From contig NC_091193.1 in assembly GCF_040958095.1 (NCBI RefSeq), positions 31,818,346 to 31,882,345 on the forward strand: DNA of 64,000 bases, written 5' to 3'. Position 1 is the stretch's first letter. Every line of letters starts with the position of its first letter. Below the pieces are notes generated by a model. It did no database searches, was not told the DNA's origin, and was given only the letters and a program-made list of their open reading frames with translations. The DNA is from Procambarus clarkii (taxonomy: Eukaryota > Arthropoda > Malacostraca > Decapoda > Cambaridae). A program made the position numbers and the translations under genes. Below, in pieces: positions 1 to 57,172 of the stretch.

Positions 1-3000
1 CTAAATCACATATCGTGATACTACATGAAATAGTATCGAAATATTGGTAAAAATGAATATATTTACGTAATATCAAACTACATGAAAAACGTGAAGAGAG
101 TCACTATTATTCCAAATTTGCTGATTTTAACTTCGAATCATAAAGCGAGGTTTCGTATTATTTAGATCCAAGAAAAGACATATGACAATGTTGTTTCCAA
201 TACAAATGATAAAAATCAATGTGTTTTCATTAGAATGAACTAAAATGTTCCTGATTTTCCGTTTATATTACCGATGGAAGAAGTACACGTAAATCCGCTC
301 TATTCCGGCTGAAACGTCGATATATGCAATAAAAACCGAACTTCTCCGCTTTTCAATATCCTACTCAGTATTTCAACGAGAAACAAATAGATGATTAAAG
401 ATGAAGTATTTAAGTTAATTATCTAATCAATTACGTGTTTGCTTCATTTTTATCGTATACTTAATGAATTAATACCAATTAACTTAAAATTCACAAAAAC
501 GTGGAAAAACGGCAAAATATTGCCTAATTCGATGATATTTTGTTTAAATCACATAAAGGAAAAGGGGATGATAAACGTCAAAATATTGCTAAATTCGATG
601 ATGTTTAGTATGAAACAAAATGCAAGAAAACGTGCTTAAAATGCAATATTATGGAAAAATCTGGGATATGAAGGCTAAATCACATATCGTGATACTACAT
701 GAAATAGTGTCGAAATATTGGTAAAAATGAATATATTTACGTAATATCAAACTACATGAAAAACGTGAAGAGAGTCTCTATTATTCCAAATTTGCAGATT
801 TTAACTTCGAATCATAAAGCGAGGTTTCGTATAATTTAGATCCAAGAAAAGACATATGACAATGTTGTTTCCAATACAAATGATAAAAATCAATGTGTTT
901 TCATTAGAATTAACTAAAATGTTCCTGATTTTCCGTTTATATTACCGATGGAAGATGTACACGTAAAACCGCTCTAATCCGGATGAAACATCGATATTTG
1001 CAATAAAAACCAAACTTCTCCCTTTTTCAATATCTTACTCAGTATTTCAACGAGAAACAAATAGATGATTAAAGGTGAAGTATTTAAGTTTATTATCTAA
1101 TCATTTACGTGTTTGCTTCATTTTTATCGTATATATATTGAATTAATACCAATAAACTGAAAATTCACAAAAACGTGGAAAAACGGCAAAATATTGCATA
1201 ATTCGATGATATTTTGTTTAAATCACAAAAAGGAAAAGGGGATGATAAACGTCAAAATATTGCTAAAATCGATGATGTTTAGTATGAAACAAAATGCAAG
1301 AAAAATTGCTTAAAATGCAATATTATGGAAAAATCTGAGATATGAAGGCCAAATCACATATCGTGATACTACATGAAATAGTATCGAAATATTGGTAAAA
1401 ATTAATATATTTACGTAATATCAAACTACATGAAAAACGTGAAGAGAGTCACTATTATTCCAAATTTGCGGATTTTAACTTCGAATCATAAAGCGAGGTT
1501 TCGTATTATTTAGATCCAAGAAAAGACATATGACAATGTTGTTTCCAATACAAATGATAAAAATCAATGTGTATTCATTAGAATTAACTAAAATGTTCCC
1601 GATTTTCTATTTATATTACCGATGGAAGAAGTACACGTAAAACCGCTCTAATCCGGCTGAAACATCGTTATATGCAATAAAAACCAAACTTCTCCCCTTT
1701 TCAATATCGTACTCAGTATTTCAACGAGAAACAAATTTATGACTAAAGGTGAAGTATTTAAGTTGCATCATTTTTATCGTATACTTAATGAATTAATACC
1801 AATAAACTGAAAATTCACTAAAACGTGGAAAAACGGCAAAATATAGCTAAATTCGATGATGTTTAGTACGAAACTAAATGCAAGAAACCTTGCTTAAAAT
1901 GCAATATTATGCGAAAATCTGAGATATGAAGCCCAAATCACATATCGTGATACTACATGAAATAGTATCGAAATATTGGTAAAAATGAATATATTTACGT
2001 AATATCAAACTACATAAAAAACGTAAAAAAAGTCAATATTATTCCAAATTTGAGGATTTTAAATTCGAATCATAGAGCGAGGTTTCATATTATTTAGATC
2101 CAAGAAAAGACATATGACAATGTTGTTTCCAATACAAATGATAAAAATCAGTGTGTTTTAATTAGAATTAACTAAAATGTTCCTGATTTTCTGTTTATAT
2201 TACCGACGGAAGATGAACACGTAAAACCGCTCTAATCCGGCTGAATCGTCGATATATGCAATAAAAACTTAACTTCTCCCCTTTTCAATATCTTACTCAG
2301 TATTTCAACGAGAAACAAATAAATGATTAAAGGTAAAGTATTTAAGTTTATTATCTAATCAATTACGTGTTTGCATCATTTTTATCGTATATTTAATGAA
2401 TTAATACCAATAAACTGAAAATTCACAAAAACGTGGAAAAACGGCAAAATATTGCCTAATTCGATGATATTTTGTTTAAATCACATGAAGGAAAAGGGGA
2501 TGATAAACGTCAAAATATTGCTAAATTCGATGATGTTTAGTATGAAACAAAATGCAAGAAAACTTGCTTAAAATGCAATATTATGGGAAAATCTGAGATA
2601 TGAAGGCTAAATCACATATCGTGATACTACATGAAATAGTATCGAAATATTGGTAAAAATGAATATATTTACGTAATATCAAACTACATGAAAAACGTGA
2701 AGAGAGTCACTATTATTCCAAATTTGCTGATTTTAACTTCGAATCATAAAGCGAGGTTTCGTATTATTTAGATCCAAGAAAAGACAAATGACAATGTTGT
2801 TTCCAATACAAATGATAAAAATCAAAGTGTTTTCATTAGAATTAACTAAAATGTTCATGATTTTCCGTGTATATTACCGATGGAAGATGTACACGTAAAA
2901 CCGCTCTAATCCGGATGAAACATCGATATATGCAATAAAAACCAAACTTCTCCCTTTTTCAATATCTTACTCAGTATTTAACGAGAAACAAATTTATGAT

Positions 3001-5976
3001 TAAAGGTGAAGTATTTAAGTTTATTATCTAATCAATTACGTGTTTGCATCATTTTTATCGTATACTTAATGAATTAATACCAATAAACTGAAAATTCACA
3101 AAAACGTAAAAAAACGGCAAAATATTGCCTAATTCGATGATATTTTGTTTAAATCACATAAAGGAAAAGGGGATGATAAACGTCAAAATATTGCTAAATT
3201 CGATGATGTTTAGTATGAAACAAAATGCAAGAAAACTTGCTTAAAATGCAATGTTATGGAAAAATCTGAGATATGAAGGCTAAATCACATATCGTGATAC
3301 TACATGAAATAGTATCGAAATATTGGTAAAAATGAAAATATTTACGTCATATCAAACTACATTAAAAACGTGAAGAGAGTCACTATTATTCCAAATGTGT
3401 GGATTTTAACTTCGAATCATAAAGCGAGGTTTCGTATTATTTAGATCCAAGAAAAGACATATGACAATGTTGTTTCCAATACAAATGATAAAAATCAATG
3501 TGTTTTCATTAGAATGAACTAAAATGTTCCTGATTTTCCGTTTATATTACCGATGGAAGAAGTACACGTAAAACCGCTCTATTCCGGCTGAAACGTCGAT
3601 ATATGCAATAAAAACCGAACTTCTCCGCTTTTCAATATCCTACTCAGTATTTCAACGAGAAACAAATAGATGATTAAAGATGAAGTATTTAAGTTAATTA
3701 TCTAATCAATTACGTGTTTGCTTCATTTTTATCATATACTTAATGAATTAATACCAATTAACTTAAAATTCACAAAAACGTGGAAAAACGGCAAAATATT
3801 GCCTAATTCGATGATATTTTGTTTAAATCACATAAAGGAAAAGGGGATGATAAACGTCAAAATATTGCTAAATTCGATAATGTTTAGTATGAAACAAAAT
3901 GCAAGAAAACGTGTTTAAAATGCAATATTATGGAAAAATCTGGGATATGAAGGCTAAATCACATATCGTGATACTACATGAAATAGTGTCGAAATATTGG
4001 TAAAAATGAATATATTTACGTAATATCAAACTACATGAAAAACGTGAAGAGAGTCTCTATTATTCCAAATTTGCAGATTTTAACTTCGAATCATAAAGCG
4101 AGGTTTCGTATTATTTAGATCCAAGAAAAGACATATGACAATGTTGTTTCCAATACAAATGATAAAAATCAATGTGTTTTCATTAGAATTAACTAAAATG
4201 TTCCTGATTTTCCGTTTATATTACCGATGGAAGATGTACACGTAAAACCGCTCTAATCCGGATGAAACTTCGATATTTGCAATAAAAACCAAACTTCTCC
4301 CTTTTTCAATATCTTACTCAGTATTTCAACGAGAAACAAATAGATGATTAAAAGTGAAGTATTTAAGTTTATTATCTAATCATTTACGTGTTTGCTTCAT
4401 TTTTATCGTATATATAATGAATTAATACCAATAAACTGAAAATTCACAAAAACGTGGAAAAACGGCAAAATATTGCCTAATTCGATGATATTTTGTTTAA
4501 ATCACAAAAAGGAAAAGGGGATGATAAACGTCAAAATATTGCTAAAATCGATGATGTTTAGTATGAAACAAAATGCAAGAAAAATTGCTTAAAAGTCAAT
4601 ATTATGGAAAAATCTGAGATATGAAGGCCAAATCACATATCGTGATACTACATGAAATAGTATCGAAATATTGGTAAAAATTAATATATTTACGTAATAT
4701 CAAACTACATGAAAAACGTGAAGAGAGTCACTATTATTCCAAATTTGCGGATTTTAACTTCGAATCATAAAGAGAGGTTTCGTATTATTAAGATCCAAGA
4801 AAAGACAAATGACAATGTTGTTTCCAATACAAATTATAAAAATCAATGTGTTTTCATTAGAATTTACTAAAATGTTCATGATTTTCCGTTTATATTACCG
4901 ATGGAAGAAGTACACGTAAAACCGCTCTAATCCGGATGAAACATCGATATATGCAATAAAAACCAAACTTCTCCCCTTTTCAATATCCTACTCAGTATTT
5001 CAACGAGAAACAAATTTATGATTAAAGGTGAAGTATTTAAGTTTATTATCTAATCAATTACGTGTTTGCATCATTTTTATCGTATACTTAATGAATTAAT
5101 ACCAATAAACTGAAAATTCACAAAAACGTAAAAAAACGGCAAAATATTGCCTAATTCGATGATATTTTGTTTAAATCACATAAAGGAAAAGGGGATGATA
5201 AACGTCAAAATATTGCTAAATTCGATGGTGTTTAGTATGAAACAAAATGCAAGAAAACTTGCTTAAAATGCAATATTTTGGAAAAATCTGAGATATGAAG
5301 GCTAAATCAAATATCGTGATACTACATGAAATAGTATCGAAATATTGGTAAAAATGAATATATTTACGTAATATCAAACTACATGAAAAACGTGAAGAGA
5401 GTCACTATTATTCCAAATTTGCAGATTTTAACTTCGAATCATAAAGCGAGGTTTCGTATTATTTAGATCCAAGAAAAGACAAATGACAATGTTGTTTTCA
5501 ATACAAATGATAAAAATCAATGTGTTTTCATTAGAATTAACTAAAATGTTCATGATTTTCCGTGTATATTACCGATGGAAGATGTACACGTAAAACCGCT
5601 CTATTCCGGCTGAAACGTCGATATATGCAATAAAAACCGAACATCTCCCCTTTTCAATATCCAACTCAGTATTTCAACGAGAAACAAATAGATGATTAAA
5701 GGTGAAGTATTTAAGTTTATTATCTAATCAATTACGTGTTTGCATCATTTTTATCGTATACTTAATGAATTTATACCAATAAATTGAAAATTCACAAAAT
5801 CGTGGAAAAACGGCAAAATATTGCCTAATTCGATGATATTTTGTTTAAATCACATAAAGGAAAAGGGGATGATAAACGTCAAAATATTGCTAAATTCGAT
5901 GATGTTTAGTATGAAACAAAATGCAAGAAAACTTGCTTAAAATGCAATATTATTCGAAAATATAAGAATATGAAGG
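1..5976 (+). repeat. Satellite block 1: irregular, 3.28-kb duplication
   Basis: Nine monomers. The monomers at 1 and 675 recur almost unchanged at 3280 and 3954, an offset of 3279 bp (five monomers, one of them short). The monomer at 2607 resembles the one at 5302. The third monomer (1349-1932) is the short 584-bp type, whereas its positional counterpart at 4628 is full length. The duplication is therefore not a clean higher-order repeat: units were shuffled or replaced, or this is the degraded edge of one. Confidence 0.85.
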
Positions 5977-8900
5977 CTAAATCACATATCGTGATACTAC
6001 ATGAAATAGTATCGAAATATTGGTAAAAATGAAAATATTTACGTCATATCAAACTACATGAAAAACGTGAAGAGAGTCACTCTTATTCCAAATTTGCGGA
6101 TTTTAACTTCGAATCATAAGCGAGGTTTCGTATTATTTAGATCCAAGAAAAGACATATGACAATGTTGTTTCCAATACAAATGATAAAAATCAATGTGTA
6201 TTCATTAGAATTAACTAAAATGTTCCCGATTTTCTATTTATATTACCGATGGAAGAAGTACACGTAAAACCGCTCTAATCCGGCTGAAACATCGATATAT
6301 GCAATAAAAACCAAACTTCTCCCCTTTTCAATATCGTACTCAGTATTTCAACGAGAAACAAATTTATGACTAAAGGTGAAGTATTTAAGTTGCATCATTT
6401 TTATCGTATACTTAATGAATTAATACCAATAAACTGTAATTCACTAAAACGTGGAAAAACGGCAAAATATAGCTAAATTCGATGATGTTTAGTACGAAAC
6501 TAAAGGCAAGAAACCTTGCTTAAAATGCAATATTATTCGAAAATATAAGATATGAAGGCCAAATCACATATCGTGATACTACATGAAATAGTATTGAAAT
6601 ATTGGTAAAAATGAATGTATTTACGTAATATCAAACTACATGAAAAACGTTAAGAGAGTCACCATTATTCCAAATTTGTGGATTTTAACTTCGAATCATA
6701 GAGCGAGGTTTCGTATTATTTAGAACCAAGAAAAGACATATGACAATGTTGTTTCCTATGCAAAAGATAAAAATCAATGTGTTTTCATTAGAATTACCAA
6801 AAATGTTCCTGGTTTTCCGTTTATATTACCGATGGAAAATGTACACGTAAAACCGCTGTATTCCGGCTGAAACGTCGATATATGCAATAAAAACCGAACT
6901 TCTCCCCCTTTAAATATCCTACTCAGTATTTCAACGAGAAACAAATAGATGATTAAAGGTGAAGTATTTAAGTTTATTATCTAATCAATTACGTGTTTGC
7001 ATCATTTTTATCGTATATTTAATGAATCAATAAACTGAAAATTCACAAAAACGTGGATAAACGGCAAAATATTGCCTAATTCGATGATATTTTGTTTAAA
7101 TCACATAAAAGAAAAGGGGATGATAAACGTCAAAATATTGCTAAATTCGATGATGTTTAGTATGAAACAAAATGCAAGAAAACTTGCTTAAAATGCAATA
7201 GTATGCGAAAATATGAGATATGAAGACCAAATCACATTTCGTGATACTACATGAAATAGTATCGAAATATTGGCAAAAATGAATATATTTACGTAGTATC
7301 AAACTGCATAAAAAACGTGAAGAGTCACTATTATCCAAAATTTGCGGATTTTAACTTCGAATCATAAAGCGAGGTTTCGTATTATTTAGATCCAAGAAAA
7401 GACATATGACAATGTTGTTTCCAATAAAAATGATAAAAATCAATGTGTATTCATTAGAATTAACGAAAATGTTCCCGATTTTCCATTTATATTACCGATG
7501 GAAGAAGTACACGTAAAACCGCTCTAATCCGGCTGAAACATCGATATATGCAATAAAAAACAAACTTCTCCCCTTTTCAATATCTTACTCAGTATTTCAA
7601 CGAGAAACAAATTTATGATTAAAGGTGAAGTATTTAAGTTTATTATCTAATCAATTACGTGTTTGCATCATTTTTATCGTATACTTAATGAATTAATACC
7701 AATAAACTGAACATTCACAAAAACGTGGAAAAACGGCAAAATATTGCCTAATTCGTTGATATTTTGTTTAAATCACATAAAGGAAAAGGGGATGATAAAC
7801 GTCAAAATATTGCTAAATTCGATGATGTTTAGTATGAAACAAAATGCAAGAAAACTTGCTTAAAAAGCAATATTATGCGAAAATCTGAGAGTTGAAGGCC
7901 AAATCACATTTCGTGATACTACATGAAATAGTATCGAAATATTGGCATAAATGAATATATTTACGTAATATCAAACTACATAAAAAACCTGAAAAGTCAC
8001 TTTTATTCCAAATTTGTGGATTTTAACTTCGAATCATAAAGCGAGGTTTCGTATTATTTAGATCCAAGAAAAGACATATGACAATGTTGTTTCCAATACA
8101 AATGATAAAAATCAATGTGTTTTCATTAGAATTAACTAAAATGTTCCTGATTTTCCGTGTATATTACCGATGGAAGATGTACACGTAAAACCGCTCTAAT
8201 CCGGCTGAAACATCGATATATGCAATAAAAACCAAAATTCTCCCCATTTCAATATCTTACTCAGTATTTCAACGAGAAACAAATTTATGATTAAAGATGA
8301 AGTATTTAAGTTTATTATCTAATCAATTACGTGTTTGCATAATTTTTATCGTATATTTAATGAATTAATACCAATAAACTGAAAATTCACAAAAACGTAA
8401 AAAAACGGCAAAATATTGCCTAATTCGATGATATTTTGTTTAAATCACATAAGGAAAAAGGGGATAATAAACGTCAAAATATTGCTAAATTCGATGATGT
8501 TTAGTATGAAACAAAATGCAAGAAAACTTGCTTAAAATGCAATATTATTCGAAAATATAAGATATGAAGGCCAAATCACATATCGTGATACTACATGAAA
8601 TAGTATCGAAATATTGGTAAAAATGAATGTATTTACGTAATATCAAACTACATGAAAAACGTTAAGAGAGTCACCATTATTCCAAATTTGTGGATTTTAA
8701 CTTCGAATCATAGAGCGAGGTTTCGTATTATTTAGATCCAAGAAAAGACATATGACAATGTTGTTTCCTATGCTAAAGATAAAAATCAATGTGTTTTCAT
8801 TAGAATTACTAAAAATGTTCCTGATTTTCCGTTTATGTTAGCGATGGAAAATGTACACGTAAAACCGCTGTATTCCGGCTGAAACGTCGATATATGCAAT

Positions 8901-11900
8901 AAAAACCGAACTTCTCCCCTTTTCAATATCCTACTCAATATTTCAACGAGAAACAAATATATGATTAAAGGTGAACTAATTAAGTTTATTATCTAATCAA
9001 TTACGTGATTGCATAATTTTTATCGTATATTTAATGAATTAATACCAATAAACTGAAAATTCACAAAAACGTGGATAAACGGCAAAATATTGCCTAATTC
9101 GATGATATTTTGTTTAAATCACATAAAGGAAAAGGGGATGATAAACGTCAAAATATTGCTAAATTCCATGATGTTTAGTACGAAACAAAATGCAAGAAAG
9201 CTTCCTTAAAATGCAATATTATGCGAAAATCTGAGATATGAAGGCCAAATCACATATCGTGATTACTACATGAAATAGTATCGAAATATTGGTAAAAATG
9301 AATATATTTACGTAATATCAAACTACATAAAAAACGTGAAAAAAGTCATTATTATTCCAAATTTGAGGATTTTAACTTCGAATCATAGAGCGAGGTTTCA
9401 TATTATTTAGATCCAAGAAAAGACATATGACAATGCTGTTTCCAATACAAATGATAAAAATCAGTGTGTTTTCATTAGAATTAACTAAAATGTTCCTGAT
9501 TTTCCGTTTATATTACCGACGGAAGATGTACACGTAAAACCGCTCTAATCCGGCTGAATCGTCGATATATGCAATAAAACTTAACTTCTCCCCTTTTCAA
9601 TATCTTACTCAGTATTTCAACGAGAAACAAATAGATGATTAAAGGTGAAGTATTTAAGTTTATTATCAAATCAATTACGTGTTTGCATCATTTTTATCGT
9701 ATATTTAATGAATTAATACCAATAAACTGAAAATTCACAAAAACGTGGAAAAAACGGCAAAATATTGCCTAATTCGATGATATTTTGTTTAAATCACATA
9801 AAGGAAAAGGGGATGATAAACGTCAAAATATTGCTAAATTCGATGATGTTTAGTATGAAACAAAATGCAAGAAAACTTGCTTAAAATGCAATATTATTCG
9901 AAAATATAAGAAATGAAGGCTAAATCACATATCGTGATACTACATGAAATAGTATCGAAATATTGGTAAAAATGAAAATATTTACGTCATATCAAACTAC
10001 ATGAAAAACGTGAAGAGAGTCACTCTTATTCCAAATTTGCGGATTTTAACTTCGAATCATAAAGCGAGGTTTCGTATTATTTAGATCCAAGAAAAGACAT
10101 ATGACAATGTTGTTTCCAATACAAATGATAAAAATCAATGTGTATTCATTAGAATTAACTAAAATGTTCCCGATTTTCTATTTATATTACCGATGGAAGA
10201 AGTACACGTAAAACCGCTCTAATCCGGCTGAAACATCGATATATGCAATAAAAACCAAACTTCTCCCCTTTTCAATATCGTACTCAGTATTTCAACGAGA
10301 AACAAATTTATGACTAAAGGTGAAGTATTTAAGTTGCATCATTTTTATCGTATACTTAATGAATTAATACCAATAAACTGAAAATTCACTAAAACGTGGA
10401 AAAACGGCAAAATATAGCTAAATTCGATGATGTTTAGTACGAAACTAAAGGCAAGAAACCTTGCTTAAAATGCAATATTATTCGAAAATATAAGATATGA
10501 AGGCCAAATCACATATCGTGATACTACATGAAATAGTATTGAAATATTGGTAAAAATGAATGTATTTACGTAATATCAAACTACATGAAAAACGTTAAGA
10601 GAGTCACCATTATTCCAAATTTGTGGATTTTAACTTCGAATCATAGAGCGAGGTTTCGTATTATTTAGAACCAAGAAAAGACATATGACAATGTTGTTTC
10701 CTATGCAAAAGATAAAAATCAATGTGTTTTCATTAGAATTACCAAAAATGTTCCTGGTTTTCCGTTTATATTACCGATGGAAAATGTACACGTAAAACCG
10801 CTGTATTCCGGCTGAAACGTCGATATATGCAATAAAAACCGAACTTCTCCCCCTTTCAATATCCTACTCAGTATTTCAACGAGAAACAAATAGATGATTA
10901 AAGGTGAAGTATTTAAGTTTATTATCTAATCAATTACGTGTTTGCATCATTTTTATCGTATATTTAATGAATCAATAAACTGAAAATTCACAAAAACGTG
11001 GATAAACGGCAAAATATTGCCTAATTCGATGATATTTTGTTTAAATCACATAAAAGAAAAGGGGATGATAAACGTCAAAATATTGCTAAATTCGATGATG
11101 TTTAGTATGAAACAAAATGCAAGAAAACTTGCTTAAAATGCAATAGTATGCGAAAATATGAGATATGAAGACCAAATCACATTTCGTGATACTACATGAA
11201 ATAGTATCGAAATATTGGCAAAAATGAATATATTTACGTAGTATCAAACTGCATAAAAAACGTGAAGAGTCACTATTATCCAAAATTTGCGGATTTTAAC
11301 TTCGAATCATAAAGCGAGGTTTCGTATTATTTAGATCCAAGAAAAGACATATGACAATGTTGTTTCCAATAAAAATGATAAAAATCAATGTGTATTCATT
11401 AGAATTAACGAAAATGTTCCCGATTTTCCATTTATATTACCGATGGAAGAAGTACACGTAAAACCGCTCTAATCCGGCTGAAACATCGATATATGCAATA
11501 AAAAACAAACTTCTCCCCTTTTCAATATCTTACTCAGTATTTCAACGAGAAACAAATTTATGATTAAAGGTGAAGTATTTAATGTTTATTATCTAATCAA
11601 TTACGTGTTTGCATCATTTTTATCGTATACTTAATGAATTAATAGCAATAAACTGAACATTCACCAAAACGTGGAAAAACGGCAAAATATTGCCTAATTC
11701 GATTGATATTTTGTTTAAATCACATAAAGGAAAAGGGGATGATAAACGTCAAAATATTGCTAAATTCGATGATGTTTAGTATGAAACAAAATGCAAGAAA
11801 ACTTGCTTAAAAAGCAATATTATGCGAAAATCTGAGAGTTGAAGGCCAAATCACATTTCGTGATACTACATGAAATAGTATCGAAATATTGGCATAAATG

Positions 11901-26800: not shown

Positions 26801-27242
26801 AGAATTAACTAAAATGTTCCTGATTTTCTGTTTATATTACCGACGGAAGATGTACACGTAAAACCGCTCTAATCCGGCTGAATCGTCGATATATGCAATA
26901 AAAACTTAACTTCTCCCCTTTTCAATATCTTACTCAGTATTTCAACGAGAAACAAATAGATGATTAAGGTGAAGTATTTAAGTTTATTATCTAATCAATT
27001 ACGTATTTGCATCATTTTTATCGTATATTTAATGAATTAATACCAATAAACTGAAAATTCACAAAAACGTGGAAAAACGGCAAAATATTGCCTAATTCGA
27101 TTATATTTTGTTTAAATCACATAAAGGAAAAGGGGATGATAAACGTCAAAATATTGCTAAATTCAAAGAAGTTTAGTATGAAACAAAATGCAAGAAAACT
27201 CTCTTAAAATGCAATATTATTCGAAAATATAAGATATGAAGG
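17811..27242 (+). repeat. Satellite block 3: no obvious higher-order period
   Basis: Fourteen full-length monomers starting at 17811, 18488, 19158, 19833, 20501, 21175, 21847, 22521, 23195, 23869, 24544, 25219, 25894 and 26570. The unit at 17811 sits where a fourth hexamer copy would begin, but it is full length (677 bp) rather than short, so the hexamer regime ends here. Units still share variants with the hexamer, for instance TGCTGTTTCC and the AATCAATAAACTG deletion. Several single-base indels are scattered here, such as CTCTAATTCC at about 18788, GACTGG at about 24818 and AGTACTGAAAC at about 25825. The 26570 unit begins the transition to block 4. Confidence 0.75.
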
Positions 27243-40754: not shown

Positions 40755-43700
40755 CCAAATCACATATCGTGATACTACATGAAATAGTATCGAAATATTG
40801 GTAAAATGAATATATTTACGTAGCATCAACCTACATGAAAAACGTGAAGAGAGTCACTATTATTCCAAATTTGCGGATTTTATCTTCGAATCATCAAGCG
40901 AGGTTTCGTATTATTTTGATCCAAAAAAAAGACATATGACAATGTTGTTTCCAATACAAATGATAAAAATCAATGTGTTTTCATTAGAATTAACTAAAAT
41001 GTTCCTGATTTTACGTGTATATTACCGATGGAAGATGTACACGTAAAACCGCTCTAATCCGGCTGAAACATCGATATATGCAATAAAAACCAAACTTCTC
41101 CCCTTTTCAATACTTACTCAGTATTTCAACGAGAAACAAATTTATGATTAAAGGTGAAGTATTTAAATTTATTTTCTAATTAATTACGTGTTTGCATCAT
41201 TTTTATCGTATACTTAATGAATTAATACCAATAAACTGAAAATTCACAAAAACGTAAAAAAACGGCAAAATATTGCCTAATTCGATGATATTTTGTTTAA
41301 ATCACATAAAGAAAAAGGGGATGATAAACGTCAAAATATTGCTAAATTCGATGATGTTTATTTAGTATGAAACAAAATGCAAGAAAACTTTCTTAAAATG
41401 CAATATAATGCGAAAATCTGAAATATGAAGGCCAAATCACATATCGTGATACTACATGAAATAGTTCCGAAATATTGGTAAAAATTAATATATTTACGTA
41501 ATATCAAACTACATGAAAAACGTGAAGAGAGTCACTATTATTCCAAATTTGTGGATTTTAACCTCGAATCATAAAGCGAGGTTTCGTATTATTTAGATCC
41601 AAGAAAAGACATATGACAATGTTGTTTCCAATACAAATGATAAAAATCAATGTGTTTTCATTAGAATTAACTAAAATGTTCCTTATTTTCCGTTTATATT
41701 ACCGATGGAAGATGTACACGTAAAACCGCTCTATTCCGGCTGAAACGTCGATATATGCAATAAAATCCGAACTTCTCCCCTTTTCAATATCTTACTCAGT
41801 ATTTCAACGAGAAACAAATAGATGATTAAAGGTGAAGTATTTAAGTTTATTATCTAATCAATTACGTGTTTGCATCATTTTTATCGTATATTTAATGAAT
41901 TAATACCAATAAACTGAAAATTCACAAAAACGTGGAAAAACGGCAAAATATTGCCTAATTCGATGATATTTTGTTTAAATCACATAAAGGAAAAGGGGAT
42001 GATAAACGTCAAAATATTCCTAAAATCGATGATGTTTAGTATGAAACAAAATGCAAGAAAAATTGCTTAAAATGCAATTTTATGAAAAAATTTGAGATAT
42101 GAAGGCCAAATCACATATCGTGATACTACATGAAATAGTATCGAAATATTGGTAAAAATTAATATATTTATGTAATATCAAACTACGTAAAAAACGTGAA
42201 AAAAGTCAATATTATTCCAAATTTGAGGATTTTAACTTTGAATCATAGAGCCAGGTTTCATATTATTTAGATGCAAGAAAAGACATATGACAATGTTGTT
42301 TCCAATACAAATGATAAAAATCAGTGTGTTTTCATTAGAATTATCTAAAATGTTCCTGATTTTCCGTTTATATTACCGACGGAAGATGTACACGTAAAAC
42401 AGCTCTAATCCGGCTGCATCGTCGATATATGCAATAAAAACTTAACTTCTCACCTTTTCAATATCTTACTCAGTATTTCAACGAGAAACAAATAGATGAT
42501 TAAAGGTGAAGTATTTAAGTTTATTATCTAATCAATTACGTGTTTGCATCATTTTTATCGTATATTTAATGAATTAATACCAATAAACTGAAAATTCACA
42601 AAAACGTGGAAAAACGGCAAAATATTGCCTAATTCGATGATATTTTGTTTAAATCACATAAAGGAAAAGGGGATGATAAACGTCAAAATATTGCTAAAAT
42701 CGATGATGTTTAGTATGAAACAAAATGCAAGAAAAATTGCTTAAAATGCAATTTTATGAAAAAATTTGAGATATGAAGGCCAAATCACATATCGTGATAC
42801 TACATGAAATAGTATCGAAATATTGGTAAAAATTAATATATTTACGTAATATCAAACTACGTAAAAAACGTGAAAAAAGTCAATATTATTCCAAATTTGA
42901 GGATTTTAACTTTGAATCTTAGAGCCAGAGTTTCATATTATTTAGATGCAAGAAAAGACATATGACAATGTTGTTTCCAATACAAATGATAAAAATCAGT
43001 GTGTTTTCATTAGAATTATCTAAAATGTTCCTGATTTTCCGTTTATATTACCGACGGAAGATGTACACGTAAAACCGCTCTAATCCGGCTGCATCGTCGA
43101 TATATGCAATAAAAACTTAACTTCTCACCTTTTCAATATCTTACTCAGTATTTCAACGAGAAACAAATAGATGATTAAAGGTGAAGTATTTAAGTTTATT
43201 ATCTAATCAATTACGTGTTTGCATCATTTTTATCGTATATTTAATGAATTAATACCAATAAACTGAAAATTCACAAAAACGTGGAAAAACGGCAAAATAT
43301 TGCCTCATTCGATGATATTTTGTTTAAATCACATAAAGGAAAAGGGGATGATAAACGTCAAAATATTGCTAAATTCGATGATGTTTAGTATGAAACAAAA
43401 TGCAAGAAAACTTGCTTAAAATACAAAATTATGGAAAAATCTGAGATATGAAGGCCAAATCACATATCGTGATACTATATGAAATAGTATCGAAATATTG
43501 GTAAAAATGAATATATTTACGTAATATCAAACTACGTGAAAAACGTGAAGAGAGTCACTATTATTCCAAATTTGAGGATTTTAACTTCGAATCATAGAGC
43601 GAGGTTTCGTATTATTTAGATCCAAGAAAAGACATATGACAATGTTGTTTCCAATACAAATGATAAAAATCAATATGTTTTCAATAGAATTAACTAAAAT

Positions 43701-46700
43701 GTTCCTGATTTTCCGTGAATATTACCGATGGAAGATGAACACGTAAAACCGCTCTAATCCGGCTGAAACATCGATATATGCAATCAAAACCAAACTTCTC
43801 CCCTTTTCAATATCTTACTCAGTATTTCAACAAGAAACAAATTTATGATTAAAGGTGAAGTATTTAAGTTTATTATCTAATCAATTACGTGTTTGCATCA
43901 TTTTTATCGTATATTTAATGAATTAATACCAATAAACTAAAAATTCACAAAAACGTAAAAAACGGCAAAATATTGCCTAATTCGATGATATTTTGTTTAA
44001 ATCACATAAAGGAAAAGGGGATGATAAACGTCAAAATATTGCTAAATTCGACGATGTTTAGTATGAAACAAAATGCAAGAAAACTTGCTTAAAATACAAT
44101 ATTATGGAAAAATCTGAGATATGAAGGCCAAATCACATATCGTGATACTACATGAAATAGAATCGAAATATTGGTAAAAATAAATATATTTACGTAATAT
44201 CAAACTACATAAAAAACGTGAAAAAATTCAATATTATTCCAAATTTGAGGATTTTAACTTCGAATCATAGAGCGAGGTTTCATATTATTTCGATCCAAGA
44301 AAAGATATATGACAATGTTGTTTCCAATACAAATGATAAAAATCAATGTGTTTTCATTAGAATTAACTAAAATGTTCCTGATTTTCCGTTTATATTACCG
44401 ACGGAAGATGTACACGTAAAACCGCTCTAATCCGGCTGAATCGTCGATATATGCAATAAAAACTTAACTTCTCCCCTTGTCAATATCTTACTCAGTATTT
44501 CAACGAGAAACAAATAGATGATTAAACGTGAAGTATTTAAGTTTATTATCTAATCAATTACGTGTTTGCATCATTTTTATCGTATATTTAATGAATTAAT
44601 ACCAATAAACTGAAAATTCACAAAAACGTGGAAAAACGGCATAATATTGCCTAATTCTATGATATTTTGTTTAAATCACATTAAAGAAAAGGGGATGATA
44701 AACGTCAAAATATTGCAAAATTCGATGATGTTTAGTATGAAACAAAATGCAAGAAAACTTGCTTAAAATGCAATATTATGGAAAAATCTGATATATGAAG
44801 GCTAAATCACATATCGTGATACTACATGAAATAGTATCGAAATATTGGTAAAAATGAAAATATTTACGTCATATCAAACTACATGAAAAACGTGAAGAGA
44901 GTCACTATTATTCCAAATTTGCGGATTTTATCTTCGAATCATCAAGCGAGGTTTCGTATTATTTAGATCCCAAAAAAAGACATATGACAAGTTGTTTCCA
45001 ATACAAATTATAAAAATCAATGTGTTTTCATTAGAATTAACTAAAATGTTCCTGATTTTCCGTGTATATTACCGATGGAAGATGTACACGTAAAACCGCT
45101 CTAATCCGGCTGAAACATCGATATATGCAATAAAAACCAAACTTCTCCCCTTTTCAATACTTACTCAGTATTTCAACGAGAAACAAATTTATGATTAAAG
45201 GTGAAGTATTTAAGTTTATTTTCTAATTAATTACGTGTTTGCATCATTTTTATCGTATACTTAATGAATTAATTCCAATAAACTGAAAATTCACAAAAAC
45301 GTGGAAAAACGGCAAAATATTGCCAATTTCGATGATATTTTGTTTAAATCACATAAAGGAAAAGGGGATGATAAACGTCAAAATATTGCTAAATTCGATG
45401 ATGTTTAGTATGAAACAAAATGCAAGAAAACTTGCTTAAAATACAAAATTATGGAAAAATCTGAGATATGAAGGCCAAATCACATATCGTGATACTATAT
45501 GAAATAGTATCGAAATATTGGTAAAAATGAATATATTTACGTAATATCAAACTACGTGAAAAACGTGAAGAGAGTCACTATTATTCCAAATTTGAGGATT
45601 TTAACTTCGAATCATAGAGCGAGGTTTCGTATTATTTAGATCCAAGAAAAGACATATGACAATGTTGTTTCCAATACAAATGATAAAAATCAATATGTTT
45701 TCATTAGAATTAACTAAAATGTTCCTGATTTTCCGTGTATATTACCGATGGAAGATGAACACGTAAAACCGCTCTAATCCGGCTGAAACATCGATATATG
45801 CAATCAAAACCAAACTTCTCCCCTTTTCAATATCTTACTCAGTATTTCAACGAGAAACAAATTTATGATTAAAGGTGAAGTATTTAAGTTTATTATCTAA
45901 TCAATTACGTGTTTGCATCATTTTTATCGTATATTTAATGAATTAATACCAATAAACTAAAAATTCACAAAAACGTAAAAAAACGGCAAAATATTGCCTA
46001 ATTCGATGATATTTTGTTTAAATCACATAAAGGAAAAGGGGATGATAAACGTCAAAATATTGCTAAATTCGATGATGTTTAGTATGAAACAAAATGCAAG
46101 AAAACTTGCTTAAAATACAATATTATGGAAAAATCTGAGATATGAAGGCCAAATCACATATCGTGATACTATATAAAATAGTATCGAAATATTGGTAAAA
46201 ATGAATATATTTACGTAATATCAAACTACATGAAAAACGTGAAAAGAGTCACTATTATTCCAAATTTGAGGATTTTAACTTCGAATCATAGAGCGAGGTT
46301 TCGTATTATTTAGATCCAAGAAAAGACATATGACAATGTTGTTTCCAATACAAATGATAAAAATCAATGTGTTTTCATTAGAATTAACTAAAATGTTCCT
46401 GATTTTCCGTGTATATTACCGAAGGAAGATGTACACGTAAAACCGCTCTAATCCGGCTGAAACATCGATATATGCAATAAAAACCAAAATTCTCCCCTTT
46501 TCAATATCTTACTCAGTATTTCAACGAGAAACAAATTTATGATTAAAGGTGAAGTATTTAAGTTTATTATCTAATCAATTACGTGTTTGCATAATTTTTA
46601 TCGTATATTTAATGAATTAATACCAATAAACTGAAAATTCACAAAAACGTGGAAAAACGGCAAAATATTGCCTAATTCGATGATATTTTGTTTAAATCAC

Positions 46701-47496
46701 ATAAAGAAAAAGGGGATGATAAACGTCAAAATATTGCTAAATTCGATGATGTTTAGTGCGAAACTAAATGCAAGAAACCTTGCTTAAAATGCAATATTAT
46801 GCGAAAATCTGAGATATGAAGCCCAAATCACATATCGTGATACTACATGAAATAGTATCGAAATATTGGTAAAAATGATTATATTTACGTAATATCAAAC
46901 TACATAAAAAACGTGAAAAAAGTCAATATTATTCCAAATTTGAGGATTTTAACTTCGAATCATAGAGCGAGGTTTCATATTATTTAGATCCAAGAAAGGA
47001 CATATGACAATGTTGTTTCCAATACAAATGATAAAAATCAGTGTGTTGTAATTAGAATTAACTAAAATGTTCCTGATTTTCTGTTTATATTACCGACGGA
47101 AGATGTACACGTAAAACCGCTCTAATCCGGCTGAATCGTCGATATATGCAATAAAAACTTAACTTCTCCCCTTGTCAATATCTTACTCAGTATTTCAACG
47201 AGAAACAAATAGATGATTAAAGGTGAAGTATTTAAGTTTATTATCTAATCAATTACGTATTTGCATCATTTTTATCGTATATTTAATGAATTAATACCAA
47301 TAAACTGAAAATTCACAAAAACGTGGAAAAACGGCAAAATATTGCCTAATTCGATGATATTTTGTTTAAATCACATAAAGGAAAAGGGGATGATAAACGT
47401 CAAAATATTGCTAAAATCGATGATGTTTAGTATGAAACAAAATGCAAGAAAAATTGCTTAAAATGCAATATTATGGAAAAATCTGAGATATGAAGG
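40755..47496 (+). repeat. Satellite block 5: mixed monomers between two trimers
   Basis: Monomers start at 40755, 41432, 42106, 42780, 43455, 44128, 44802, 45475, 46149 and 46823. The pair 42106 and 42780 are near-identical neighbours, sharing the unusual AGAGCCAG and TTTAGATGCAAG variants, so a recent one-unit duplication is likely. Units 40755 and 44802 share the TTATCTTCGAATCATCAAGC variant that marks type A of the next block. The monomer at 41432 has an extra TTTA (GATGTTTATTTAGTATG at about 41355). The block reads as precursors or recombinants of the trimer that follows. Confidence 0.75.
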
Positions 47497-50400
47497 CCAA
47501 ATCACATATCGTGATACTACATGAAATAGTATCGAAATATTGGTAAAAATTAAAATATTTACGTAATATCAAACTACATGAAAAACGTGAAGAGAGTCAC
47601 TATTATTCCAAATTTGCGGATTTTATCTTCGAATCATCAAGCGAGGTTTCGTATTATTTAGATCCCAAAAAAAGACATATGACAAGTTGTTTCCAATACA
47701 AATGATAAAAATCAATGTGTTTTCATTAGAATTAACTAAAATGTTCCTGATTTTCCGTGTATATTACCGATGGAAGATGTACACGTAAAACCGCTCTAAT
47801 CCGGCTGAAACATCGATATATGCAATAAAAACCAAACTTCTCCTCTTTTCAATACTTACTCAATATTTCAACGAGAAACAAATTTATGATTAAAGGTGAA
47901 GTATTTAAGTTTATTTTCTAATTAATTACGTGTTTGCATCATTTTTATCGTATACTTAATGAATTAATACCAATAAACTGAAAATTTACAAAAACGTGGA
48001 AAAACGGCAAAATATTGCCAAATTCGATGATATTTTGTTTAAATCACATAAAGGAAAAGGGGATGATAAACGTCAAAATATTGCTAAATTCGATGATGTT
48101 TAGTATGAAACAAAATGCAAGAAAACTTGCTTAAAATAAAAAATTATGGAAAAATCTGAGATATGAAGGCCAAATCACATATCGTGATACTATATGAAAT
48201 AGTATCGAAATATTGGTAAAAATGAATATATTTACGTAATATCAAACTACGTGAAAAACGTGAAGAGAGTCACTATTATTCCAAATTTGAGGATTTTAAC
48301 TTCGAATCATAGAGCGAGGTTTCGTATTATTTAGATCCAAGAAAAGACATATGACAATGTTGTTTCCAATACAAATGATAAAAATCAATGTGTTTTCATT
48401 AGAATTAACTAAAATATTCCTGATTTTCCGTGTATATTACCGAAGGAAGATGTACACGTAAAACCGCTCTAATCCGGCTGAAACATCGATATATGCAATA
48501 AAAACCAAAATTCTCCCCTTTTCAATATCTTACTCAGTATTTCAACGAGAAACAAATTTATGATTAAAGGTGAAGTATTTAAGTTTATTATCTAATCAAT
48601 TACGTGTTTGCATAATTTTTATCGTATATTTAATGAATTAATACCAATAAACTGAAAATTCACAAAAACGTGGAAAAACGGCAAAATATTGCCTAATTCG
48701 ATGATATTTTGTTTAAATCACATAAAGAAAAAGGAGATGATAAACGTCAAAATATTGCTAAATTCGATGATGTTTAGTGCGAAACTAAATGCAAGAAACC
48801 TTGCTTAAAATGCAATATTATGCGAAAATCTGAGATATGAAGCCCAAATCACATATCGTGATACTACATGAAATAGTATCGAAATATTGGTAAAAATGAT
48901 TATATTTACGTAATATCAAACTACATAAAAAACGTGAAAAAAGTCAATATTATTCCAAATTTGAGGATTTTAACTTCGAATCATAGAGCGAGGTTTCATA
49001 TTATTTAGATCCAAGAAAAGACATATGACAATGTTGTTTCCAATACAAATGATAAAAATCAGTGTGTTGTAATTAGAATTAACTAAAATGTTCCTGATTT
49101 TCTGTTTATATTACCGACGGAAGATGTACACGTAAAACCGCTCTAATCCGGCTGAATCGTCGATATATGCAATAAAAACTTAACTTCTCCCCTTTTCAAT
49201 ATCTTACTCAGTATTTCAACGAGAAACAAATAGATGATTAAAGGTGAAGTATTTAAGTTTATTATCTAATCAATTACGTATTTGCATCATTTTTATCGTA
49301 TATTTAATGAATTAATACCAATAAACTGAAAATTCACAAAAACGTGGAAAAACGGCAAAATATTGCCTAATTCGATGATATTTTGTTTAAATCACAAAAA
49401 GGAAAAGGGGATGATAAACGTCAAAATATTGCTAAAATCGATGATGTTTAGTATGAAACAAAATGCAAGAAAAATTGCTTAAAATGCAATATTATGGAAA
49501 AATCTTAGATATGAAGGCCAAATCACATATCGTGATACTACATGAAATAGTATCGAAATATTGGTAAAAATTAACATATTTACGTAATATCAAACTACAT
49601 GAAAAACGTGAAGAGAGTCACTATTATTCCAAATTTGCGGATTTTATCTTCGAATCATCAAGCGAGGTTTCGTATTATTTAGATCCCAAAAAAAGACATA
49701 TGACAAGTTGTTTCCAATACAAATGATAAAAATCAATGTGTTTTCATTAGAATTAACTAAAATGTTCCTGATTTTCCGTGTATATTACCGATGGAAGATG
49801 TACACGTAAAACCGCTCTAATCCGGCTGAAACATCGATATATGCAATAAAAACCAAACTTCTCCTCTTTTCAATACTTACTCAATATTTCAACGAGAAAC
49901 AAATTTATGATTAAAGGTGAAGTATTTAAGTTTATTTTCTAATTAATTACGTGTTTGCATCATTTTTATCGTATACTTAATGAATTAATACCAATAAACT
50001 GAAAATTTACAAAAACGTGGAAAAACGGCAAAATATTGCCAAATTCGATGATATTTTGTTTAAATCACATAAAGGAAAAGGGGATGATAAACGTCAAAAT
50101 ATTGCTAAATTCGATGATGTTTAGTATGAAACAAAATGCAAGAAAACTTGCTTAAAATACAAAATTATGGAAAAATCTGAGATATGAAGGCCAAATCACA
50201 TATCGTGATACTATATGAAATAGTATCGAAATATTGGTAAAAATGAATATATTTACGTAATATCAAACTACGTGAAAAACGTGAAGAGAGTCACTATTAT
50301 TCCAAATTTGAGGATTTTAACTTCGAATCATAGAGCGAGGTTTCGTATTATTTAGATCCAAGAAAAGACATATGACAATGTTGTTTCCAATACAAATGAT

Positions 50401-53400
50401 AAAAATCAATGTGTTTTCATTAGAATTAACTAAAATATTCCTGATTTTCCGTGTATATTACCGAAGGAAGATGTACACGTAAAACCGCTCTAATCCGGCT
50501 GAAACATCGATATATGCAATAAAAACCAAAATTCTCCCCTTTTCAATATCTTACTCAGTATTTCAACGAGAAACAAATTTATGATTAAAGGTGAAGTATT
50601 TAAGTTTATTATCTAATCAATTACGTGTTTGCATAATTTTTATCGTATATTTAATGAATTAATACCAATAAACTGAAAATTCACAAAAACGTGGAAAAAC
50701 GGCAAAATATTGCCTAATTCGATGATATTTTGTTTAAATCACATAAAGAAAAAGGGGATGATAAACGTCAAAATATTGCTAAATTCGATGATGTTTAGTG
50801 CGAAACTAAATGCAAGAAACCTTGCTTAAAATGCAATATTATGCGAAAATCTGAGATATGAAGCCCAAATCACATATCGTGATACTACATGAAATAGTAT
50901 CGAAATATTGGTAAAAATGATTATATTTACGTAATATCAAACTACATAAAAAACGTGAAAAAAGTCAATATTATTCCAAATTTGAGGATTTTAACTTCGA
51001 ATCATAGAGCGAGGTTTCATATTATTTAGATCCAAGAAAAGACATATGACAATGTTGTTTCCAATACAAATGATAAAAATCAGTGTGTTGTAATTAGAAT
51101 TAACTAAAATGTTCCTGATTTTCTGTTTATATTACCGACGGAAGATGTACACGTAAAACCGCTCTAATCCGGCTGAATCGTCGATATATGCAATAAAAAC
51201 TTAACTTCTCCCCTTTTCAATATCTTACTCAGTATTTCAACGAGAAACAAATAGATGATTAAAGGTGAAGTATTTAAGTTTATTATCTAATCAATTACGT
51301 ATTTGCATCATTTTTATCGTATATTTAATGAATTAATACCAATAAACTGAAAATTCACAAAAACGTGGAAAAACGGCAAAATATTGCCTAATTCGATGAT
51401 ATTTTGTTTAAATCACAAAAAGGAAAAGGGGATGATAAACGTCAAAATATTGCTAAAATCGATGATGTTTAGTATGAAACAAAATGCAAGAAAAATTGCT
51501 TAAAATGCAATATTATGGAAAAATCTTAGATATGAAGGCCAAATCACATATCGTGATACTACATGAAATAGTATCGAAATATTGGTAAAAATTAACATAT
51601 TTACGTAATATCAAACTACATGAAAAACGTGAAGAGAGTCACTATTATTCCAAATTTGCGGATTTTATCTTCGAATCATCAAGCGAGGTTTCGTATTATT
51701 TAGATCCCAAAAAAAGACATATGACAAGTTGTTTCCAATACAAATGATAAAAATCAATGTGTTTTCATTAGAATTAACTGAAATGTTCCTGATTTTCCGT
51801 GTATATTACCGATGGAAGATGTACACGTAAAACCGCTCTAATCCGGCTGAAACATCGATATATGCAATAAAAACCAAACTTCTCCTCTTTTCAATACTTA
51901 CTCAAAATTTCAACGAGAAACAAATTTATGATTAAAGGTGAATTATTTAAGTTTATTTTCTAATTAATTACGTGTTTGCATCATTTTTATCGTATACTTA
52001 ATGAATTAATACCAATAAACTGAAAATTTACAAAAACGTGGAAAAACGGCAAAATATGGCCAAATTTGATGATATTTTGTTTAAATCACATAAAGGAAAA
52101 GGGGATGATAAACGTCAAAATATTGCTAAATTCGATGATGTTTAGTATGAAACAAAATGCAAGAAAACTTGCTTAAAATACAAAATTATGGAAAAATCTG
52201 AGATATGAAGGCCAAATCACATATCGTGATACTATATGAAATAGTATCGAAATATTGGTAAAAATGAATATATTTACGTAATATCAAACTACGTGAAAAA
52301 CGTGAAGAGAGTCACTATTATTCCAAATTTGAGGATTTTAACTTCGAATCATAGAGCGAGGTTTCGTATTATTTAGATCCAAGAAAAGACATATGACAAT
52401 GTTGTTTCCAATACAAATGATAAAAATCAATGTGTTTTCATTAGAATTAACTAAAATGTTCCTGATTTTCCGTGTATATTACCGAAGGAAGATGTACACG
52501 TAAAACCGCTCTAATCCGGCTGAAACATCGATATATGCAATAAAAACCAAAATTCACCCCTTTTCAATATCTTACTCAGTATTTCAACGAGAAACAAATT
52601 TATGATTAAAGGTGAAGTATTTAAGTTTATTATCTAATCAATTACGTGTTTGCATAATTTTTATCGTATATTTAATGAATTAATACCAATAAACTGAAAA
52701 TTCACAAAAACGTGGAAAAACGGCAAAATATTGCCTAATTCGATGATATTTTGTTTAAATCACATAAAGAAAAAGGGGATGATAAACGTCAAAATATTGC
52801 TAAATTCGATGATGTTTAGTGCGAAACTAAATGCAAGAAACCTTGCTTAAAATGCAATATTATGCGAAAATCTGAGATATGAAGCCCAAATCACATATCG
52901 TGATACTACATGAAATAGTATCGAAATATTGGTAAAAATGAATATATTTACGTAATATCAAACTACATAAAAAACGTGAAAAAAGTCAATATTATTCCAA
53001 ATTTGAGGATTTTTACTTCGAATCATAGAGCGAGGTTTCATATTATTTAGATACAAGAAAAGACATATGACAATGTTGTTTCCAATACAAATGATAAAAA
53101 TCAGTGTGTTTTAATTAGAATTAACTAAAATGTTCCTGATTTTCTGTTTATATTACCGACGGAAGATGTACACGTAAAACCGCTCTAATCCGGCTGAATC
53201 GTCGATATATGCAATAAAAACTTAACTTCTCCCCTTTTCAATATCTTACTCAGTATTTCAACGAGAAACAAATAGATGATTAAAGGTGAAGTATTTAAGT
53301 TTATTATCTAATCAATTACGTATTTGCATCATTTTTATCGTATATTTAATGAATTAATACCAATAAACTGAAAATTCACAAAAACGTGGAAAAACGGCAA

Positions 53401-55580
53401 AATATTGCCTAATTCGATGATATTTTGTTTAAATCACATAAAGGAAAAGGGGATGATAAACGTCAAAATATTGCTAAAATCGATGATGTTTAGTATGAAA
53501 CAAAATGCAAGAAAAATTGCTTAAAATGCAATATTATGGAAAAATCTGAGATATGAAGGCCAAATCACATATCGTGATACTACATGAAATAGTATCGAAA
53601 TATTGGTAAAAATTAACATATTTACGTAATATCAAACTACATGAAAAACGTGAAGAGAGTCACTATTATTCCAAATTTGCGGATTTTATCTTCGAATCAT
53701 CAAGCGAGGTTTCGTATTATTTAGATCCCAAAAAAAGACATATGACAAGTTGTTTCCAATACAAATGATAAAAATCAATGTGTTTTCATTAGAATTAACT
53801 AAAATGTTCCTGATTTTCCGTGTATATTACCGATGGAAGATGTACACGTAAAACCGCTCTAATCCGGCTGAAACATCGATATATGCAATAAAAACCAAAC
53901 TTCTCCTCTTTTCAATACTTACTCAATATTTCAACGAGAAACAAATTTATGATTAAAGGTGAAGTATTTAAGTTTATTTTCTAATTAATTACGTGTTTGC
54001 ATCATTTTTATCGTATACTTAATGAATTAATACCAATAAACTGAAAATTTACAAAAACGTGGAAAAACGGCAAAATATTGCCAAATTCGATGATATTTTG
54101 TTTAAATCACATAAAGGAAAAGGGGATGATAAACGTCAAAATATTGCTAAATTCGATGATGTTTAGTATGAAACAAAATGCAAGAAAACTTGCTTAAAAT
54201 ACAAAATTATGGAAAAATCTGAGATATGAAGGCCAAATCACATATCGTGATACTATATGAAATAGTATCGAAATATTGGTAAAAATGAATATATTTACGT
54301 AATATCAAACTACGTGAAAAACGTGAAGAGAGTCACTATTATTCCAAATTTGAGGATTTTAACTTCGAATCATAGAGCGAGGTTTCGTATTATTTAGATC
54401 CAAGAAAAGACATATGACAATGTTGTTTCCAATACAAATGATAAAAATCAATGTGTTTTCATTAGAATTAACTAAAATATTCCTGATTTTCCGTGTATAT
54501 TACCGAAGGAAGATGTACACGTAAAACCGCTCTAATCCGGCTGAAACATCGATATATGCAATAAAAACCAAAATTCTCCCCTTTTCAATATCTTACTCAG
54601 TATTTCAACGAGAAACAAATTTATGATTAAAGGTGAAGTATTTAAGTTTATTATCTAATCAATTACGTGTTTGCATAATTTTTATCGTATATTTAATGAA
54701 TTAATACCAATAAACTGAAAATTCACAAAAACGTGGAAAAACGGCAAAATATTGCCTAATTCGATGATATTTTGTTTAAATCACATAAAGAAAAAGGGGA
54801 TGATAAACGTCAAAATATTGCTAAATTCGATGATGTTTAGTGCGAAACTAAATGCAAGAAACCTTGCTTAAAATGCAATATTATGCGAAAATCTGAGATA
54901 TGAAGCCCAAATCACATATCGTGATACTACATGAAATAGTATCGAAATATTGGTAAAAATGATTATATTTACGTAATATCAAACTACATAAAAAACGTGA
55001 AAAAAGTCAATATTATTCCAAATTTGAGGATTTTAACTTCGAATCATAGAGCGAGGTTTCATATTATTTAGATCCAAGAAAAGACATATGACAATGTTGT
55101 TTCCAATACAAATGATAAAAATCAGTGTGTTGTAATTAGAATTAACTAAAATGTTCCTGATTTTCTGTTTATATTACCGACGGAAGATGTACACGTAAAA
55201 CCGCTCTAATCCGGCTGAATCGTCGATATATGCAATAAAAACTTAACTTCTCCCCTTTTCAATATCTTACTCAGTATTTCAACGAGAAACAAATAGATGA
55301 TTAAAGGTGAAGTATTTAAGTTTATTATCTAATCAATTACGTATTTGCATCATTTTTATCGTATATTTAATGAATTAATACCAATAAACTGAAAATTCAC
55401 AAAAACGTGGAAAAACGGCAAAATATTGCCTAATTCGATGATATTTTGTTTAAATCACAAAAAGGAAAAGGGGATGATAAACGTCAAAATATTGCTAAAA
55501 TCGATGATGTTTAGTATGAAACAAAATGCAAGAAAAATTGCTTAAAATGCAATATTATGGAAAAATCTTAGATATGAAGG
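47497..55580 (+). repeat. Satellite block 6: second trimeric higher-order repeat, 2021 bp x 4
   Basis: Four copies begin at 47497, 49518, 51539 and 53560, each 2021 bp by my landmarks. Type A has TTATCTTCGAATCATCAAGC, GATCCCAAAAAAAG and the one-base-shorter GACAAGTTG. Type B has CTATATGAAATAG and ACCGAAGGAAG. Type C has GAAGCCCAAATC and GTGTTGTAATTAG, although the third copy reads GTGTTTTAATTAG. Adjacent types differ at many sites while the same type in successive copies differs at only a few. The diagnostic variants differ from those of block 4, so the two trimers were amplified independently from the same monomer pool. Confidence 0.92.
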
Positions 55581-55589
55581 CCAAATCAC

Positions 55590-57101: not shown

Positions 57102-57172
57102 ATTTTGGCAATACTGCTTTTCCAATCTCATTTGTTGTTCAATGTAAAATATTTGTTGCTCGACTTGCAACA

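Follow-up and report, generated by a model that had tools for sequence, protein, structure and literature searches.

The window analysed here is a stretch of 64,000 nucleotides from the crayfish Procambarus clarkii (contig NC_091193.1, called C44 below; the window is C44:31818346-31882345, position 1 being C44 31818346), and most of it is occupied by a satellite with a 674-bp monomer that is arranged in several higher-order repeat regimes. Cutting based on a conserved 31-base anchor yielded 83 monomers, all on the plus strand, matching well a preliminary description made from the letters alone, which had counted about 83 monomers in one orientation. Most of them (78 of the 83) are 668-677 bp long; four (M03, M10, M16 and M22) measure 582-584 bp and one (M61) measures 710 bp. 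The GC content is 28-30% across the satellite (2-kb windows). Pairwise identity among the 83 monomers averages 95.1% (range 91.2-100%), adjacent monomers are diverged by about 5%, and 11 monomer pairs are identical in their aligned bases. The satellite features are listed below in window coordinates, with the evidence for each in brackets.

1-55582, plus strand: 83 head-to-tail monomers of the 674-bp satellite, M01-M83, with M01 from base 3; the array continues leftward outside the window.
1351-1934, plus strand: M03, 584 bp long, a short monomer like M10, M16 and M22 (lengths and column table).
5979-17812, plus strand: hexamer in three copies, M10-M27 (offset-6 identity 99.85% versus 93.3% at offset 1).
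17813-25895, plus strand: M28-M39, a block without clear regime (identity and clustering).
27245-40756, plus strand: M42-M61, the first trimer regime (a-b-c), with two hybrid monomers breaking its order (identity, clustering and column table).
31291-31964, plus strand: M48, hybrid, left part of type a and right part of type c (mismatches fall from 15 with the best single parent to 1 with two parents).
33311-33984, plus strand: M51, hybrid, left part of type c and right part of type b (mismatches fall from 14 to 1; 0 to monomer J32182908 of an inverted second copy of the array, described below).
40047-40756, plus strand: M61, of type c, lengthened to 710 bp by an insertion of about 36 bp (length; the inverted copy holds a 710-bp counterpart with 2 mismatches).
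46151-55582, plus strand: second trimer regime, M70-M83 (offset-3 identity 99.5% versus 94.7% for neighbours).

The order of the monomers is strongly periodic. Mean identity is 96.7% at offset 3 and 96.9% at offset 6, levels reached by none of 5000 shuffles of monomer order. The string of regimes was read from monomer clusters at 1.5%. The hexamer units are 3943, 3946 and 3945 bp long, and each opens with the 582-584-bp form of the monomer. The first trimer runs abc abc [a|c] ab [c|b] c abc abc abc from M42 to M61, and the second comprises four full units of exactly 2021 bp (M72-M83, from 47499) with M70-M71 ahead of them. In a FastTree tree, higher-order positions are monophyletic in 11 of 12 cases, and the twelfth is monophyletic too once M41 is included. 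The hexamer and the second trimer have the defining property of a higher-order repeat: neighbours are diverged, and corresponding monomers of successive units are near-identical. All three regimes named in the preliminary description, namely three copies of a hexamer of about 3945 bp, a trimer of about 2022 bp and a different trimer of 2021 bp in four copies, are present, with the qualification that M48 and M51 interrupt the first trimer; its expectation of periodic order and of clustering by position, for which it had proposed a tree, was also borne out. To call these regimes independent, as it did, is too strong. M31 and M35, which lie outside the hexamer, have hexamer positions 2 and 6 as their nearest relatives (99.1% and 99.7%) and are spaced accordingly, and in M67 the right part of trimer type a is present. 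We considered M30-M35 as a complete diverged copy of the hexamer and ruled this out: only in M31 and M35 is the best match a hexamer monomer, M30 and M32-M34 being nearer to non-hexamer monomers.

The two interruptions of the first trimer are themselves informative. Using the 196 informative columns of the monomer alignment table, we found that the two-parent mismatch level of M48 and of M51 was equalled in none of 200 column shuffles. Eight of the 83 monomers (M01, M09, M48, M51, M63, M64, M65 and M67) can be described as two-parent products under the requirement that none of 200 shuffles comes as low and that two parents save 5 mismatches or more, a threshold that is uncorrected for the number of monomers. 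The contexts c-[a|c]-a for M48 and b-[c|b]-c for M51 each amount to the gain of one monomer in register. This fits the products expected from misaligned exchange inside a monomer, that is, from unequal exchange by one monomer, and hybrid monomers may record single exchange events.

A second copy of the array is located on C44 at 32.170-32.220 Mb, on the minus strand and about 0.3 Mb from the array of the window. Markers were matched on 57 of its units, those of 760 bp or more being excluded. Of the 48 monomers in its window-equivalent part, 39 are at least 99% identical to a window monomer, and marker monomers follow each other in the same order in both copies. Mismatches between the copies number 0 for M51 and M62, 1 for M02, M49 and M50, 2 for M61 and M63, 3 for M08 and 4 for M05; the total of 14 over nine markers, about 0.2%, is a lower estimate, since the markers were picked as best matches. 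The counterpart of M64/M65 has at least 9 mismatches. The registers differ. The place of the window's three hexamer units and of M28 and M29 behind them is taken in the second copy by two units of an octamer consisting of h1-h6, M28 and an h6-like monomer (offset-8 identity 99.73%); the counterpart of the trimer is a five-monomer period (offset-5 identity 99.39%); and the M30-M39 block is replaced by five monomers without close counterpart (97.8-98.7%). Hybrid M48 is found in the window only. Because M51 is present in both copies, it probably predates their separation, and the present regimes would be at least partly younger.

The satellite extends far beyond the window. The preliminary description had taken it for a 55-kb array that ends at 55589. 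That position is the insertion site of a 24.2-kb element, past which the satellite continues in phase, and the plus-strand array covers about 180 kb from C44 31694304 to this insertion point (31873935), with an insertion of 12.4 kb counted in. Leftward of the window, on the same strand, 105 kb of satellite with only inserts of up to 1.3 kb are followed by the 12.4-kb insertion and then by satellite to C44 31694304. Probes of 800 bp detected the 674-bp satellite up to 32.30 Mb on C44, with negative results at 32.05-32.09 and 32.34 Mb and at least four strand changes (31.95/31.97, 32.01/32.03, 32.03/32.11 and 32.27/32.30 Mb); the domain measures about 0.6 Mb, breaks included. Left of the window, the best higher-order offsets range from 3 to 8 (215 of 227 units, four of at least 1000 bp and everything before 31713597 being excluded), for example an octamer at 99.4% over C44 31740190-31753701. 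A 168-169-bp satellite adjoins the domain at C44 31694304 (25 copies, L009:1-4306, 83% matches) and is seen again at the 32.09-Mb probe (L037).

Mobile pieces recur within this domain. Between C44 31.713 and 31.818 Mb, 49 of the 145 units left of the window are about 873 bp long and mixed with 674-bp monomers. These longer units consist of the monomer and a 186-bp insert that bears a long palindrome (hairpin), with a duplication around the insert of 13 bp in three of four closely examined units and 11 bp in the fourth. Another insert, of 1.33 kb and with an 8-bp target duplication, is found in three plus-strand units, with 3 to 6 mismatches between its copies; three units of the inverted copy also hold a piece of about 1.33 kb. 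The 186-bp and 1.33-kb inserts each occupy one fixed monomer position in several units. The open frame of the 1.33-kb insert matches the end of the PF00078 reverse transcriptase profile with E 0.0075, below the Pfam cut-off, a weak hint that it may be reverse-transcriptase-like, as in long interspersed nuclear elements ('LINE-like'). MicroRNA genes in the 873-bp units (L012) were considered and rejected: there were 27 permissive Rfam matches, nearly all microRNA-like (best E 7e-12), all below the gathering score, which we attribute to the long palindrome in the 186-bp insert. In the window, Rfam at the gathering threshold and a tRNA scan gave no matches, and comparison of the window with a plasmid collection gave none either.

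The right edge of the window is formed by the 24.2-kb insertion, with the following features.

55583-55589, plus strand: left copy of a 7-bp target-site duplication, AAATCAC (the right copy lies just past the end of the element, C44 31898145).
55590-64000, plus strand: left part of a 24.2-kb transposon-like element in the satellite, C44 31873935-31898145 (inverted ends and target duplication).
60740-61048, minus strand: reverse transcriptase fragment in the inserted element (PF00078, E 1.1e-7).

The first two monomers past the element are 99.7% and 99.6% identical to M81/M75 and to M82/M79, respectively, the next two members of the second trimer, and the third departs from the trimer (98.1% to M35, 97.8% to M80). 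The ends of the element are inverted repeats, identical over 393 bp (about 400 bp compared) and 98.8% identical over 1705 bp, and the open frames of window positions 59035-61436 are found again, inverted, near its far end. The element is DNA-transposon-like; its inverted ends measure at least 1.7 kb, and the recurring frames suggest a length of about 6 kb. The Pfam search of six flank peptides returned only the reverse transcriptase fragment above curated cut-offs; the C-terminal frames of the element, which have no Pfam match, presumably resemble KDZ transposases. Its first 521 bp have at least 40 genome copies at 100% identity (40 of 2406 candidates scored), which indicates that the element family moved recently. 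Eighteen of those 40 form nine inverted pairs, 14-26 kb apart, with a perfect 7- or 8-bp target duplication in eight pairs and none in the ninth. The 12.4-kb insertion in the same array (C44 31700841-31713273) is a relative of the element, flanked by a target duplication, CAATATC, and with inverted ends that measure about 2.2 kb (99.3% identity), and a third member of the family lies inside satellite on contig C7. The element also holds two minisatellites, one at window positions 56158-57100 (GC-rich, about 30 bp, within the inverted end) and one at 57830-58357 (16 bp, ATGCTGGTGGTGTATG).

Seven of 20 probes placed the same satellite family on C7, a contig of 56 Mb, at 0.15 Mb and between 0.65 and 0.97 Mb, the probe at 0.77 Mb being negative. 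The genome-wide search for the satellite scored 13 of 5254 candidates, and its counts are lower bounds. The eleven C7 units sampled show average identities of 90-92% to C44 monomers; among themselves, ten of the eleven share 93-99.7%, and the eleventh (1121 bp) reaches 86-90%, a comparison that for chromosome specificity covers two contigs. M36 is the best C44 match of all eleven, and for this reason the least structured block, M28-M39, to which it belongs, is suggested to be close to the ancestral sequence.

Internally, about 396 bp of the monomer are taken up by direct sub-repeats that have diverged from one another and recur every 65.5-66 bp, a signal that none of 300 dinucleotide shuffles equalled (periods 30-75); the same analysis found no sub-repeat signal in the remainder of the monomer. 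Two sub-repeat copies, at 509 and 575, are separated by 66 bp, and the alignment of M16 shows the short hexamer monomer to be missing 24 bp plus exactly one sub-repeat of 66 bp. Subtracting four sub-repeats leaves 674 - 4 x 65.75 = 411 bp. According to PMC7859515, PlSAT3-411 (GC 26.8%) marks pericentromeric heterochromatin on all chromosomes of Pontastacus leptodactylus, and PlSAT75-664 is made of the whole 411-bp PlSAT3-411 unit and four direct sub-repeats of about 70 bp. PMC13130569, a 2026 survey where PlSAT75-664 is named PlSAT57-664, gives higher coverage for the 664 form than for the 411 form in Cambaridae, the family to which Procambarus belongs; the 411 form maps partially there, and the 664 form of Procambarus peaks at 10-30% divergence from the published consensus. 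The satellite studied here shares with PlSAT3-411/PlSAT75-664 a long AT-rich monomer, direct sub-repeats of about 66-70 bp and a plan of 411 bp plus four sub-repeats. Compared by published description and two primers rather than by consensus sequences, the monomer thus appears close to them in plan, size and base composition, which is no proof of common descent.

Putting these observations together, we propose, with a probability of roughly two in three, that this is a crayfish satellite of (peri)centromeric type, built on the plan of PlSAT3-411/PlSAT75-664, whose higher-order structure has been turned over by repeated unequal exchange. Misaligned copies would recombine in register inside monomers, leading to the gain or loss of whole monomers; a block once duplicated could then pair out of step with itself and expand. 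New regimes would arise in this way, come to cover from a few to tens of kilobases together with the inserts they hold, and give way to others, a turnover that pericentromeric or centromeric heterochromatin may tolerate or favour. Successive local amplification by unequal exchange had already been proposed in the preliminary description, and it gains support from the two-parent hybrids M48 and M51 and from a second copy with common monomers in other registers. We are less sure that the domain lies in pericentromeric or centromeric heterochromatin; given the published relatives, a pericentromeric role is plausible.

Several observations weigh against this proposal. Nine of the 48 monomers of the second copy reach only 96.6-98.7% identity to the window, and gene conversion or break-induced copying could produce the same hybrids as misaligned exchange. 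The sub-repeat region was picked after internal matches had been seen, so that its test was not blind. The PlSAT3-411 primers matched the monomer at scores that 21 (forward) and 144 (reverse) of 1000 shuffles reached, and control primers did nearly as well (59 of 1000 for PlSAT6F, 57 for PlSAT14F); the 2026 survey describes the 664 form as without similarity between species (PMC13130569). No 30-bp stretch of the monomer is conserved beyond chance (425 of 2000 permutations as low, C7 units of at least 700 bp being excluded). Finally, the satellite on C7 is located near the contig start, unlike the centromere of a metacentric chromosome, a position that would suit a centromere only given an error at the scaffold end or an acrocentric chromosome.

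The last two points, together with a search for CENP-B-box-like motifs, speak for a heterochromatic satellite that has no centromere role and expands because recombination there is not selected against. The core motif, allowing up to one mismatch, matched nowhere in the satellite and once in the window, with one mismatch and in the flank, when five matches were expected by chance; nor does the monomer hold a conserved stretch that would resemble a protein-binding site. The CENP-B box, present in some centromeric satellites, is not known to be required for centromeres in general. The plan and base composition of the monomer resemble those of a published pericentromeric family (PMC7859515). We consider a satellite without centromere role a serious contender, at somewhat under even odds.

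The inverted copy may be a true inverted segmental duplication rather than a retained other haplotype, an explanation that we rate only a little short of an even chance: both copies are on the same scaffold, about 0.3 Mb apart, and the strand changes elsewhere along the domain suggest that inversions may be a local feature. The inverted copy adjoins a gap of 500 N at C44 32165253, however, and marker divergence of about 0.2% (14 mismatches in nine monomers) is explicable by an unpurged second haplotype. The copies would then be the two parental haplotypes of a single animal, which would carry the same centromere-type array with hexamer and trimer on one chromosome and octamer and pentamer on the other, a reading that we regard as a tentative option, possible but below even odds. 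If it were true, the higher-order period would be allelic and fast-changing instead of a property of the species, and M51, present in both copies, and M48, private to one, would date single exchanges on either side of the split.

Amplification by excised circles, with rolling-circle copying and reinsertion, or by break-induced replication, instead of unequal crossing over, seems rather unlikely. Near-identical units (99.85% in the hexamer) do stand beside much less ordered regions, and entire insert-bearing blocks recur, which speaks for such copying, but the hybrid monomers at single-monomer steps within the trimer run and the related registers of the two copies (octamer versus hexamer) fit stepwise exchange. 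A mixture of stepwise exchange with circle or break-induced copying is compatible with the data. That the higher-order order is an assembly artefact, with reads collapsed or falsely chained and the inverted copy a misplaced duplicate of the same reads, is improbable: the N gap beside that copy indicates that its contig was probably placed by scaffolding, and the eleven monomer pairs identical in aligned bases invite collapse, but the copies differ at many sites and in register and yet have private markers in common (M51 and M62 with 0 mismatches, M61 with 2), so that they look like two real, separately assembled sequences, and the element junction has a target duplication with trimer satellite in the right phase on both sides.

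The locus holds what is apparently a young higher-order satellite, the product of stepwise unequal exchange or of a closely related kind of recombination, with mobile pieces captured in it. The origin and change of higher-order repeats have mostly been argued from long-established primate arrays. Here the order of events can be read from the sequence, in which young regimes, hybrids, marker inserts and a second copy with other registers are all available. The type of repeat is known; what is unusual is how much of its history is readable, from adjacent young regimes and hybrids of a single step to the second copy in other registers.

Alpha satellite of primates is characterized by diverged neighbouring monomers, near-identical multi-monomer units and chromosome-specific sets of variants. 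The crayfish satellite resembles it in its diverged neighbours and near-identical multi-monomer units, and differs in its monomer length (674 bp versus 171 bp), in the small size of its units (3-8 monomers), in different regimes that succeed each other within tens of kilobases and in that no CENP-B-box-like sequence was found in the satellite. The earlier view that such nested regimes are less familiar in invertebrates stands in part. For decapods, literature searches that covered mainly non-subscription papers, with term searches in PMC7859515, PMC13130569 and PMC10454600, showed no report of multi-monomer higher-order repeats beyond the internal 'HOR' (higher-order repeat) of PMC7859515. In root-knot nematodes, at least, higher-order arrays are reported: satellite monomers occur there in simple and in higher-order arrays with signs of array rearrangement (PMC3694981). 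The complex nematode units combine different satellites and include a CENP-B-box-like motif, in an unrelated lineage. The closest comparison is with PlSAT75-664, whose published 'HOR' is the internal 411 + 4 x 70 structure of a single monomer, whereas the units of 3, 5, 6 and 8 monomers described here constitute a further level of organization.

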